This document shows positions 9,284 through 45,852 of a stretch of 64,000 nt of DNA, in pieces. How positions within the stretch are numbered: the stretch's first letter is position 1; the number at the start of each line of letters is the position of its first letter. Source of the stretch: Epilithonimonas hungarica (lineage in GTDB: Bacteria; Bacteroidota; Bacteroidia; Flavobacteriales; Weeksellaceae); contig NZ_FNBH01000001.1 of the NCBI RefSeq assembly GCF_900102265.1, forward strand, positions 1,426,001 through 1,490,000. Direction: 5' to 3'. The translations under genes and the position numbers were made by a program. The notes under the pieces are model-generated. The model was not told the DNA's origin. It did not search any database and worked only from the letters and a program-made list of their open reading frames with translations.

Positions 9284-9303
9284 TTGTAGATTTTTATCTA
9301 CAA
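9284..9303. promoter_or_regulatory. Palindrome TTGTAGAT-N4-ATCTACAA upstream of batC
   Basis: A perfect 8-bp inverted repeat with a 4-nt spacer, 50 nt upstream of the batC -33 element. The same 16 fixed bases with the same spacer length recur at 39934-39953. It is a candidate protein-binding site; no regulator is identified. Confidence 0.5.
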
Positions 9304-38958: not shown

Positions 38959-39414
38959 TTAAGCTTCATTTATAGAAGAAGCTTTTATAATATCTTTTAT
39001 TTTTTCAAATTTTTCCGCTTCGGTATTGGAGATACTTCCGATCCTGTAATGGAAATTTCTGATTCCTCTTTTGGATTTGATACTTATCAGTAAAATACGA
39101 TCCATGATTTCTTTGTCTATTTTTAAGGAAACAACCTTGTGTAAAGGAACTTCCAGAACGGGTCTTTTTAATTGTGAAAATAGATTTCCATATTTTACAG
39201 AGATGATATGCTCGGTAATTTCCAAAGAGAAAAGCTTGAGAGTTATCAATCTCCATGATGCCAATAAAAAGATAATGAAGCAAATAACGTACAGTGTTGT
39301 ATCATTCATCTTTAAAAATCGGTCTGCGAAAAACAAGAAAATAAAGTCTAATAAGAGAATGAATGAAAATCCATACACCGCTAGGATGGTCTTTCTTCTG
39401 TTATTTATTTTCAT
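38959..39414 (-). CDS. Membrane protein with PH-like cytoplasmic domain
   Basis: A 151-aa hypothetical protein with two membrane helices (about 9-31 and 38-57) followed by a beta-rich domain (about 60-125) that resembles bacterial PH domains (EITEHIISVKYG, then VPLHKVVSLKID), and a C-terminal helix. The function is unknown. It has its own terminator. Its upstream region is the stem-loop array at 39434-39860. Confidence 0.7.
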   Translation of the reverse strand: MKINNRRKTILAVYGFSFILLLDFIFLFFADRFLKMNDTTLYVICFIIFLLASWRLITLKLFSLEITEHIISVKYGNLFSQLKRPVLEVPLHKVVSLKIDKEIMDRILLISIKSKRGIRNFHYRIGSISNTEAEKFEKIKDIIKASSINEA

Positions 39415-39433
39415 CTTTTGAATTGTGTTTTGT

Positions 39434-39860
39434 AAGTGTCAAAATTACAGAGCCGTTCGACTCTGTAACTTGAAACTTAGGATTTCTTCGTTTGTGTTTT
39501 TACTGTCATTTGTATTTTTAGAATCTTTCGATTTGTGTTTTTTTTAGTATCTCTTACAGAGCCTTTCGGCTCCGTAAAAAGATACTTGATTTCCATCAAT
39601 AGTGTTTATGAATGTGTTTTTGTGTTTTTTTAGTATAAATTGTAAAAGCTTTCGATTATATAATTTATACTTAAGATTTCATCATTTGTGTTTTTAGAAT
39701 CTTCTGAGCTTGTGTTCTTTGTAATTATTATAATTTTTAGTTCTTATAATAATTACTCAAAATTTCATCATTTGTGTTTTTTATTTTCGATAAATTAGTA
39801 ATTCATCATTTGTGCTTTTAGAATCCTATTTTCGATTTTTTTAACAATTATAATTGGCTC
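39434..39860. repeat. Array of different stem-loops joined by a conserved linker
   Basis: Four strong hairpins with unrelated stems follow each other: 39434-39478 (TTACAGAG/CTCTGTAA inside an AAGT/ACTT frame), 39546-39585 (AGTATCT/AGATACT plus GAGCC/GGCTC), 39632-39671 (AGTATAAATT/AATTTATACT) and 39721-39756 (a perfect 13-bp stem GTAATTATTATAA). Smaller ones with TTTCG loops lie nearby (for example 39781-39793). After each comes a linker close to ATTTCATCATTTGTGTTTTT, often then AGAATC and TTTCGA. It fills most of a 770-bp gap with no credible ORF. Structure is kept while stem sequence changes. Confidence 0.75.
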
Positions 39861-39933
39861 TTTTTGTTGGTACAAATTTACTAACATACAGAATTAGGGT
39901 AACTATAAAAGTCTTAGATATATATCGCTAAAC

Positions 39934-39953
39934 TTGTAGATATTTATCTACAA
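39934..39953. promoter_or_regulatory. Second palindrome TTGTAGAT-N4-ATCTACAA
   Basis: Same 8-bp arms and 4-nt spacer as the site at 9284-9303. It sits in the non-coding region beyond the stem-loop array, with no adjacent promoter visible to me. Confidence 0.45.
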
Positions 39954-40181
39954 TTAATAATGCATATTGAAATAATATTTATTTCTATTTGGTTATTTTC
40001 TTCTCTGCATTAGAAGTTTCGTTTTGAATACGGGTGAATAAAATTTTTAAATTCTGAGGTTTTTCCATAAATAAGTTGATAATCATGCATTATTAGTCAC
40101 AGAAATGTTATAGCAAAAAATGCCTAACAATTTTTTTGATTATCAGGACATTTATATTCGTGAACAATTTAAAACAATGGT

Positions 40182-43480: not shown

Positions 43481-44122
43481 CTAATAATGATTTTTGATCA
43501 AATCTATAAGTTCTACTATATTTTCTATGTTTAGTTTTTCAAAAATCCTTTTCTTTAACGTGCTTACGGTATTTTGTTTGATATCCAGTTTGTTGGCAAT
43601 TTCCAGATTACCGTAGCCTTCTGCATACATTTCTGCGATCTGTAGTTCTCTGTCTGTTAAAGAAAATAATGGATTGATCAGATTTCTGTTACGTATAGAA
43701 TTCATTAATAGGGCCTGTGTGACAGGAGAGATGTATTCTCCGGTCTTTATCATTTTTGATATGGCGTATTTCACATCTTCTTCCTCACTCAACTTGCTAA
43801 GGAATCCATTTGCTCCGGCATTGATGAATTTTAAGGATTGTGTATTTTCATCTATTCCGGAAAATATCAATATTTTGATCTCGGGTCTTATATTTTTGAT
43901 ATCAGATAATATGCTGAGACTGTTTCCATCGGGAAAGTGAGCATCTATAATGGCAATATCAATAGGGTTGGATTGTATAGATTCCAATATCTTTTGTAGT
44001 GTTGAAGCATGAAAGATCTCACATTCCAGTTCCATTTCTTCCAAAAGAAAAACGATGCCCTGTCTTATTAGACTATGATCATCTGCAAGTAAGAAAGTGA
44101 TTGGTCTATCTAATTGATTCAT
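43481..44122 (-). CDS. NarL/LuxR-family response regulator
   Basis: A 213-aa response regulator with a receiver domain (about 8-125; acidic Asp14/Asp15, phospho-acceptor Asp60) and a LuxR-type HTH (about 145-210, with LTDRELQIAEMYAEGYGNLE, then IANKLDIKQNTVSTLKKRIF). Its start overlaps the stop of the kinase gene by 4 bp, so the two are translationally coupled and form a two-component pair. Confidence 0.92.
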   Translation of the reverse strand: MNQLDRPITFLLADDHSLIRQGIVFLLEEMELECEIFHASTLQKILESIQSNPIDIAIIDAHFPDGNSLSILSDIKNIRPEIKILIFSGIDENTQSLKFINAGANGFLSKLSEEEDVKYAISKMIKTGEYISPVTQALLMNSIRNRNLINPLFSLTDRELQIAEMYAEGYGNLEIANKLDIKQNTVSTLKKRIFEKLNIENIVELIDLIKNHY

Positions 44123-45852
44123 TTATTGATTTTCAAATTAACAGAGAAGCTTACTATTGTCCCATGATTCAGTTTGCTATCTACAGATATTTTTCCAGAG
44201 TACAATTCTACAATTTCCTTACAAAGACTCAGTCCTAGACCAGCTCCCAGATTTTCTACATCTTCAGACAGTACACCTTGATAGTAAGGTTCAAATATTT
44301 TCTCAAGGTCAGATTCTGAGATTCCTGCACCTGTATCTGTTATTTTTGTAACTAGCGAAATTGTATTTTCATCTACAGATTCTGTTTTGGTATCTACGGT
44401 TATTTGCCCGTTCTCTGTAAACTTGTTAGCATTTCCAAGGATATTCATAAAAACCTGATTGATCTTTGTGTTATCAGAATAAACGGTAATACTGGGGTCA
44501 ATATTTTTATTAACGACAAATTTATTATTTCTGGTTTCTATATAAGGCTCTATGGAGGTGAGAATAGAATCTATTTCATCGCTGATATTAAAAACTGTCG
44601 GGATTAGTTTGTTTTCAACCTGTTGGTTTTTTGTGTATTCCAAAATTTGATTAGCCTGCATCAATAGGGTGTTATTTGTAAAGCTTATCGATTTTAGATA
44701 TTCTTTTATACTTTCGTCTGTGGTTTTTTTATTAATTCTGTTGATGAAAATTCCAATGATCTTGAGTGGAGATCTTAGCTCATGGCTTAACATACCCAAA
44801 ATTCTATTTTTGAAATTAAGATTTTCCTTTATCTGATCATTAGCAATTTTCAACCTTTTCTCATATATGAAGGCAATTCTTGTCAGGAACATGATCAATA
44901 TAGAGACGATAAACATCAGGATCAGAGCTCCCAGAACCAAATAGTTTCTGATATGATTGCTTTTGGAAGTTTGTTTTTCATATTCCTTTTCAAGTTCCAA
45001 CTTAGAATCTTTGATGGCCATTCCATAGATGTTCATCAGGTCATTACTGTATATTAGGAGATTGTTGAAGGTCTTGAAAAACTTTTCATTATGGTTTTTA
45101 TTATTGGTAATGTTGACCTGTATCCTTTGGACCTCTTTGGAGTAGTGGTTATTGATCGTCCTCATGATACTGTCCATATCTGATTTTATTTTTTCGCCGG
45201 TGGTCTGTCCCCCGTTTTTAATTGTAATAATGGTGTTTTCTTTCTGTACATCAACTTTTCCGGCTATTGCATCACCGATCCTGCCGAGCAGTCCCTTCTT
45301 TTTCACGCTATCAGAAACAGTTTTTGTCTCTATATTGAATTTCTCATAATTATAATTGTTGAGATCAAATTTTTTAAGGGTTGGAGCATTGTTCTCTCGG
45401 ATCTTAAAGCTTGATCTGGAAGAAAATTGATAGGTAGAATCCGCCAGAAGTTTTAGTTTCCTGAATTCCGAAGAATCTTGTTTCTGAGGCAGGATAACGT
45501 TTTCTAATCTTGGATTTTTGTAGCTGTTGATACTGTCCAGGTTTTTAGTGAGTTTATCAACGGACTGGAAATAATACTCCAAATATTTTCGATCATTAGT
45601 AATAAGATATTTTTGGAAGTAGTCCTGAGAACTTACCAATTCTTTCTTGGAATCATCTGTCAGATTTTCGATGGAATGGATTTCATTCAATTGATTTTCT
45701 ATAAACTTCAGATTTTTTTTATTCCTGAACTCGTTGTAAAAAAAACTGCCTATAATGACTTGTATCAAAAGAATGCAGATAATAAGAAAATAATGGACAA
45801 TCTTTCTCGATCTAAAGCTCAATGGGCGTAAATGATTGTTCTTTGATTCCAT
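44119..45852 (-). CDS. Sensor histidine kinase with large periplasmic domain
   Basis: A 577-aa kinase with two membrane helices (about 19-39 and 304-326) bounding a mostly helical periplasmic sensor of about 265 residues. A coiled-coil linker leads to HisKA with phospho-acceptor His357 (GMLSHELRSPLKI). The ATPase domain has an N box (FMNILGNANKF), G1 (DTGAGI) and G2 (GAGLGLSLCKEIV). It partners the overlapping regulator gene. The signal is unknown. Confidence 0.9.
   Translation of the reverse strand: MESKNNHLRPLSFRSRKIVHYFLIICILLIQVIIGSFFYNEFRNKKNLKFIENQLNEIHSIENLTDDSKKELVSSQDYFQKYLITNDRKYLEYYFQSVDKLTKNLDSINSYKNPRLENVILPQKQDSSEFRKLKLLADSTYQFSSRSSFKIRENNAPTLKKFDLNNYNYEKFNIETKTVSDSVKKKGLLGRIGDAIAGKVDVQKENTIITIKNGGQTTGEKIKSDMDSIMRTINNHYSKEVQRIQVNITNNKNHNEKFFKTFNNLLIYSNDLMNIYGMAIKDSKLELEKEYEKQTSKSNHIRNYLVLGALILMFIVSILIMFLTRIAFIYEKRLKIANDQIKENLNFKNRILGMLSHELRSPLKIIGIFINRINKKTTDESIKEYLKSISFTNNTLLMQANQILEYTKNQQVENKLIPTVFNISDEIDSILTSIEPYIETRNNKFVVNKNIDPSITVYSDNTKINQVFMNILGNANKFTENGQITVDTKTESVDENTISLVTKITDTGAGISESDLEKIFEPYYQGVLSEDVENLGAGLGLSLCKEIVELYSGKISVDSKLNHGTIVSFSVNLKINK

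Follow-up and report, generated by a model that had tools for sequence, protein, structure and literature searches.

CsrB and RsmZ are decoy RNAs with several hairpins and several binding sites that are driven by BarA-UvrY and GacS-GacA and bind protein through GGA motifs in their hairpin loops. The locus described here lies in the window, the 64,000-nucleotide stretch of Epilithonimonas hungarica DNA that was analyzed, and resembles these RNAs as a multi-hairpin, multi-site decoy that would also be driven by a two-component system. However, its sites lie between the hairpins and are antisense to small RNAs (sRNAs), whereas those of CsrB/RsmZ are protein-binding GGA motifs. GGA loops of that type were absent, by eye, from the four window hairpins, the loops of which are GAAA, CGAA or A-rich.

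The closest known system in logic is QrrX/QrrT of Vibrio cholerae, a likeness that concerns features and not sequence. QrrX acts as a sponge RNA by pairing with the base-pairing domain conserved among sibling sRNAs; the gene of its LysR-type activator, QrrT, lies immediately upstream, and the promoter block is kept in relatives (PMC9732341). A sponge for sRNA siblings, an upstream activator gene and a conserved promoter block would likewise make up the system in the window. As far as the cited part of that report describes it, QrrX has one predicted pairing region and works with Hfq and a LysR-type activator, whereas arrays of the window type have up to 12 sites between hairpins, a putative two-component regulator and site flanks that distinguish siblings (PMC9732341).

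For the sRNA family, the closest known counterpart is FopS of Bacteroides thetaiotaomicron, a set of paralogous sRNAs in which a common single-stranded seed is followed by a terminator and which pair near the start codons of surface-protein mRNAs; in the part of the paper cited here, their antagonist is the RNA-binding protein RbpB and not a sponge (PMC11697453). The sRNA family matched by the window array belongs to the same phylum, shares a seed, has the terminator after the seed and may also target start codons. In a scan of 4227 Rfam models, which include FopS according to the paper's statement of deposit (PMC11697453), loci L002, L003 and L007 gave no FopS match at E <= 1. Rfp18 of Flavobacterium psychrophilum is also a conserved flavobacterial sRNA with predicted exported-protein targets, but its predicted pairing region lies in its third stem-loop, unlike that of the sRNA described here (PMC9723704). 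As far as we have seen, none of QrrX/QrrT, FopS and CsrB/RsmZ combines all features of the window system. Among the matches listed, the open-licence literature gave no natural tandem sRNA sponge or comparable array, and open-licence PMC literature gave no title on sRNA studies in Weeksellaceae genera.

We propose, with a probability of roughly 0.78, that the minus strand of this locus encodes a multi-site sponge RNA that would be transcribed under a linked regulator and titrate a seed-sharing sRNA family. Complementarity, strand, copy number, conservation, promoter and terminator anatomy and synteny, on which this proposal is built, are read directly from the DNA.

Structure of the array in the window

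Between a 151-aa protein gene (38959-39414, minus strand) and approximately position 39953, the minus strand holds ATTTCATCATTTGTGTTTTT in several copies, together with four strong hairpins. The minus-strand RNA of 39415-39800 folded with an MFE of -77, compared with a mean of -38.2 (sd 4.0) for 100 dinucleotide shuffles, none of which reached the native value (z -9.75). The 19-nt core occurred four times in the 570-nt array at up to three mismatches, compared with 0.015 copies on average for 200 shuffles; the opposite strand had none. The linker TTTCATCATTTGTGTTTTT is exact at 39677-39695 and 39763-39781, has two mismatches at 39801-39819 and 39483-39501, and is weaker at 39524-39542, 39501-39519 and 39591-39609. 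The features, in the order in which the minus strand would be transcribed, are as follows.

39415..39868, minus: predicted sponge (decoy) RNA, running into the 151-aa gene with no recognised terminator
39801..39825, minus: putative sRNA-binding site 1, GATTCTAAAAGCACAAATGATGAAT; differs from the complement at two positions, with a G.U pair retained at one of them
39763..39781, minus: putative sRNA-binding site 2, AAAAACACAAATGATGAAA; exact seed complement lacking the GATTCT flank
39721..39756, minus: hairpin with a 13-bp perfect stem (repeat search and fold)
39677..39701, minus: putative sRNA-binding site 3, GATTCTAAAAACACAAATGATGAAA; 25/25 complementary to the sRNA, duplex -33.4 kcal/mol
39629..39674, minus: hairpin with 19-nt arms, 84% complementary (repeat search and fold)
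39591..39609, minus: degenerate site, four mismatches
39546..39586, minus: hairpin, ACGGAGCC/GGCTCTGT stem lengthened by AGTATC/GATACT (sequence and fold)
39524..39542, minus: degenerate site (AAAAACACAAAT, rest diverged), five mismatches
39501..39525, minus: degenerate site with GATTCT flank, five core mismatches
39483..39501, minus: site AAAAACACAAACGAAGAAA, two mismatches
39434..39478, minus: hairpin, TTACAGAGTC/GGCTCTGTAA stem (sequence and fold)
38959..39414, minus: gene of the 151-aa protein adjoining the array, membrane-protein-like by eye
43481..44122, minus: LuxR-type response regulator (Pfam Response_reg and GerE); in many relatives, the ortholog stands immediately upstream of the predicted sponge
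44119..45852, minus: sensor histidine kinase gene adjoining the response regulator (Pfam HisKA and HATPase_c)

The first-pass annotation had described at least four strong hairpins joined by a constant linker, and the fold and core counts above bear this out. It had called the stems unrelated, which holds for two of the four; the stems at 39434 and 39546 have TTACAGAGCC-like arms in common, and this hairpin type was found in 14 of 17 arrays of the genus, so that the description is only partly right. Its distinction from a CRISPR array, which would have near-identical repeats at regular spacing, was confirmed, as the constant part is degenerate and the start-to-start distance ranges from 38 to 153 nt. 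No terminator was found on either strand in 39300-40000, a simple scan for sigma-70 promoters and terminators gave nothing above chance, and an Rfam search of the window gave 0 matches.

At E <= 0.01, neither Pfam nor NCBIfam gave a match for the 151-aa protein, and a "PH-domain" label for its gene was dropped for that reason. Among 197 family genomes, its matches below 1e-27 were confined to the genus. A paralog with 37% identity is encoded elsewhere in the genome (L233, G000:C5:1064793-1065230), at a locus without the palindrome described below.

The putative partner sRNA and its siblings

The site sequence GATTCTAAAAACACAAATGATGAAA is exactly complementary to an sRNA encoded elsewhere in the genome, over its single-stranded seed and its first terminator arm. 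A lack of further linker copies had been named in the first-pass annotation as a sign of chance AT-rich sequence; the own genome (3.96 Mb) contains the linker at 24 places with up to two mismatches (reversed control, 0), so this objection falls. The 17-mer complement occurred at 33 places (control, 1). Thirty of these 33 loci were read and sorted by hand into four array copies, four sRNA-like loci (seed directly before a terminator hairpin), 11 ORF starts (frame of at least 60 codons), two pre-terminator loci in complement orientation and nine unexplained. In locus L175 (G000:C1:458583-458599), the seed of a sibling sRNA seemingly lies near the 5' end, directly after a TAGATTTG box. Lone sponge-like sites outside the array, such as GATTCTAAAAACACAAATAACGAAA, were seen just before a terminator-like hairpin in L197 (G000:C5:575255-575279), L278 and L277; they are possible one-site sponges.

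When 38 other genomes were searched by BLAST, the 25-mer TTTCATCATTTGTGTTTTTAGAATC was found at 100% identity in 21 of 22 same-genus relatives, and reading of the locus in the remaining one (G002) showed that it is present there as well (22/22). All 22 loci read have the same gene layout of a 5' hairpin, AATAAATTTTT, the 25-mer and a terminator starting inside the 25-mer, except that in G008 the 5' part is different and its hairpin is not recognisable. A promoter-like TTGTA(C/T)TTTTAC or similar sequence lies upstream of the gene. The 5' hairpins could not be aligned with MAFFT and were folded singly; in single-sequence folds of 34 sRNAs, the unpaired fraction of the seed was 0.81 on average and 0.33 at the lowest.

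At up to three mismatches, some match to the 25-mer was present in 97 of 148 family genomes, and the 18-mer AAAACACAAATGATGAAA was present in 29 of 196 order genomes, 28 of these within the family. Records of Chryseobacterium, Epilithonimonas, Kaistella, Cloacibacterium, Soonwooa and Cruoricaptor also contain the 25-mer, among the matches listed; identity in this named-genome scan holds by construction and is therefore no evidence of conservation. An Rfam search of eight loci (E <= 1) placed only a tRNA above its gathering score and gave no family for the sRNA. In 23 genus genomes, A/C-only leaders before ATGATGAAA were surveyed and counted by hand: AAAACACAA accounted for 114 of 150 among the matches listed and the next commonest for 4, a tally that includes sRNA genes and array sites and is thus no count of mRNA targets.

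The genus relatives carry sibling sRNAs that have the seed in common and differ in their terminators. A script sorted the 43 copies in 40 fetched regions into 26 sRNA-like copies, five open-frame starts and 12 others, and the sRNA-like copies had at least five terminator types (AGAATC, GCCCTC, AATTCC, CTGTC..GACAG and CTTCCC). Ten of the 12 others look, by eye, like one repeated coding sequence, of which the L383 copy resembles MobB relaxases below the curated cut-off. In this conjugative-type repeat element (L383 1618-3105; L381, L382), two exact AAAACACAAATGATGAAA copies stand approximately 624 bp apart in the MobB-like relaxase gene; the sRNA family may touch mobile elements too, or the relaxase-gene copies may be due to chance. 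Kaistella records L077, L084 and L122 carry two sRNA copies in tandem, approximately 170-177 bp apart, with different 5' hairpins.

Complementarity between sites and sRNAs

The window array is complementary to the seed of an sRNA that presumably acts in trans. A seed-duplex scan of the 64 kb placed all of the 12 strongest of 21,322 overlapping scan windows in the minus strand of the array, where they covered three sites. In predicted folds of this genome, the unpaired fraction was 0.76 for the sites and 0.54 for the array, and in all 15 site-bearing arrays pairing was lower at the sites than on average across the array, a comparison that carries no composition control.

The bases beside the core were also compared with the sRNA terminator arms, with the near-duplicate arrays G016 and G001 excluded here and from the wobble count below. 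The GATTCT flank, which is the complement of the sRNA 1 terminator arm, was found with at most one mismatch at 34 of 82 sites in 15 arrays. The GAGGGC/AAGGGC flank, which complements the sRNA 2 arm, was found at 5/82 sites (G003, G014, G020 and G021), and the sRNA 2 sibling itself was read in G003, G014 and G021. Two sites of the GAGGGC type gave -26.8 and -25.5 kcal/mol with sRNA 2 versus -10.5 and -11.4 with sRNA 1. A matching address was missing at 42 of the 82; these are counts at sites alone, since the background of the flank test was contaminated by degenerate real sites. The present genome has sRNA 2 (L003), and its array is without an sRNA-2 address.

GUG stands in place of some or all of the site AUGs in G078, G128 and G139, and pairing is still possible through G.U; the two such sites tested gave duplexes of -19.7 and -20.2. 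Among 84 changes in the wobble count, 34 were A>G, which per position was not clearly above the other changes.

Promoter region and linked regulator

Upstream of the predicted RNA, three elements were recognised.

39934..39953, minus: 20-bp palindrome TTGTAGATAAATATCTACAA, where an activator of the predicted sponge RNA may bind (regulator-ortholog loci)
39915..39927, minus: second conserved block CGATATATATCTA, centre approximately 22 bp from the palindrome centre (24-locus alignment)
39873..39880, minus: -7 promoter box TAAATTTG (24-locus alignment), with a predicted transcription start near 39866-39869

The palindrome, TTGTAGA-N6-TCTACAA, is laid out like the GacA box. The 24 aligned loci were picked by the palindrome and not by the second block, the consensus of which is CGA.aTatATCtA. 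TA..TTTG was found in 23 of them at a nearly constant distance, the remaining one, G078, having TACCTTTA; TAnnTTTG is the -7 promoter consensus and was applied as such to the box at 39873..39880. In the form TTGTAGAWWWWWWTCTACAA, the palindrome has zero to three exact copies per genus genome. Since it also precedes TPR-like, HU-like and other genes, the linked regulator is only its putative owner. Within the window, a second copy (TTGTAGATTTTTATCTACAA) lies at 9284-9303, upstream of a TPR-like gene or operon (9389 onward), and the palindrome stands before the same TPR-like gene in the three relatives read (L296, L302 and L307).

An ortholog of the response regulator was found in 60 of 148 family genomes (E <= 1e-60), and 1 kb downstream was read for the best 30 of these 60. 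The palindrome was present within that distance in 24 of the 30 loci (15 in the genus, nine outside), compared with 0.05/30 expected from mononucleotide shuffles. All 24 have a site at up to four mismatches in 17, and 19 have one at up to two. Across the 30 loci, a site at up to two mismatches occurred in 22, compared with 0/30 for the opposite strand and 0.0 expected from shuffles. The six loci without the palindrome include L420, L424 and L425, which keep a site at up to two mismatches, L428 with a weak site, L427 with none, and that of the window itself, where inserted genes stand between regulator and array. The second-best NCBIfam match of the regulator was the UvrY/SirA/GacA family, at 103 of 280 bits and far below the cut-off. 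Five same-genus genomes have the sRNA and lack a regulator ortholog at E <= 1e-60, indicating that the sRNA does not require this locus.

The array in relatives

Seventeen genus arrays were compared, of which 16 were cut at the palindrome and hence begin there, while G001 ends at a contig edge. The number of sites per array at up to three mismatches ranged from 0 (G009 and G019, with weaker sites only) to 12 (G012); six arrays had a single strict site, and no sites were found on the opposite strand of any of the 17. End terminators were found by script in G008 and G020 and by eye in G003, G014 and G021, which the script had missed, and in G009 and G019 a terminator sits between two promoter-site modules. 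No terminator before the 151-aa gene was seen, by script and reading, in 10 of the 17 arrays, including that of the window. In G008, G014, G020 and G021, the terminator is followed by what appears, by eye, to be a separate promoter before the 151-aa gene; in G003, the array is present and the gene is absent from the locus. By eye, each of five Chryseobacterium-type loci has one or two sites together with a hairpin and a strong terminator, and the next gene lies on the opposite strand. These short loci, together with the synteny, sites and palindrome in the regulator loci, mark the array as an enlarged form of a conserved element that is linked to the regulator.

Candidate targets

Of all steps in the proposed circuit, the weakest is the assignment of sRNA targets, which might be the start-codon regions of exported-protein genes. 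When 332 genes were sampled from 464 kb (the window plus 400 kb), five starts had at least 16/19 matches, compared with 1.9 for permuted leaders, a weak enrichment. The candidates in the own genome (L176, L181, L183, L185, L187, L188, L189 and L196) mostly have N-termini that resemble signal peptides by eye, and look-alikes of L176 and L181 in other species share the feature (L360, L384 and L365). In the Chryseobacterium-type records L269, L272, L273 and L274, a near complement of the seed marks the start of the gene that follows one recognised by eye as ssb-like, which makes the following gene a candidate conserved target.

Proposed mechanism and alternative explanations

In the proposed circuit, the histidine kinase and LuxR-type regulator (43481-45852) would activate the promoter through TTGTAGATAAATATCTACAA, and the minus strand would give a non-coding or 5'-leader RNA. 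The hairpins would hold the linkers apart and exposed as single strands, and these may base-pair with the seed of the conserved sRNA; in certain species they may pair with a sibling too, the siblings being told apart by six bases beside the core. Pairing would titrate or destabilise the sRNAs and free their mRNA targets; the released mRNAs would have AAACACAAATGATGAAA-like starts, with exported-protein genes as the best candidates. We infer transcription, pairing in the cell, titration, regulator binding and an effect on targets from the features described above, and the sponge is perhaps switched on by the linked two-component system. The fuller form of this proposal is a sequence-addressed bank, that is, a kinase-switched RNA with many antisense sites addressed by their flanks to sRNA siblings, in which lineages gain and lose sites (1 to 12). 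It can be likened to engineered multi-site microRNA sponges. We regard this form as conceivable yet somewhat doubtful, and its odds are slightly lowered by the present genome, which has sRNA 2 without an sRNA-2 address.

The array could instead be a regulatory 5' leader, in which sRNA binding serves to control the 151-aa gene in cis, with titration as a side effect. This is suggested by the missing terminator before the gene in the window and in 10/17 genus arrays, and the start of the 151-aa gene is itself site-like in several genomes. However, the G003 array stands without that gene, the Chryseobacterium-type loci end in a terminator with the next gene on the other strand, and four further arrays show a terminator and an apparent separate promoter before the gene, so we consider a leader unlikely. 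Still less probable is the reading of the sites as translation-start mimics, A-rich copies of a start-codon context that would bind ribosomes or an RNA-binding protein and not sRNAs. In its favour, the sites contain AUGAUG and resemble the starts of some exported-protein genes, and Bacteroidetes mRNAs lack a Shine-Dalgarno sequence and show an excess of A ahead of the start codon, as far as the cited part of the source describes them (PMC7366714). Against it, the GATTCT/GAGGGC flanks fit sRNA terminator arms and have no evident start-codon role, GUG variants lose the AUG but keep pairing, and the sampled genes showed no strong preference for the leader.

The remaining alternatives were raised in the first-pass annotation, which favoured none of its three options. 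Its small-RNA cluster was right in that the constant segment probably matters as single-stranded RNA, but the functional strand is likely the opposite one, which would act as a decoy that captures sRNAs instead of encoding a series of them. A plus-strand polycistronic sRNA cluster with a hairpin after each seed would explain why the linker on the plus strand equals the sRNA seed; yet 39300-40000 lacks a terminator on both strands, AGAATC lies outside any stem in the window array, and the conserved promoter block and the terminators of relatives point the other way, which leaves this reading very improbable. The least probable of all is an origin as stacked insertions of a mobile palindromic repeat or as attC-like recombination sites recognised by shape. 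Linker copies are dispersed in the genome and the stems are variable, which speaks for this origin, and the first-pass annotation had asked whether each copy sits beside a new stem; none of the 30 own-genome loci read, nine of them unexplained, looks like a copy of the whole unit. The syntenic position, the conserved promoter, the terminators in several relatives and the complementarity to separate sRNA genes all argue against inserted elements and attC sites.

Implications for Weeksellaceae

With the multi-site sponge RNA as the preferred reading, sequence alone predicts a full circuit for the Weeksellaceae, composed of a sensor kinase, a response regulator, a multi-site sponge, seed-sharing sRNAs and exported-protein mRNAs. 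Since sister species differ in how many sites they carry at a single syntenic locus, the family would allow a direct test of the dose response of a natural RNA sponge.
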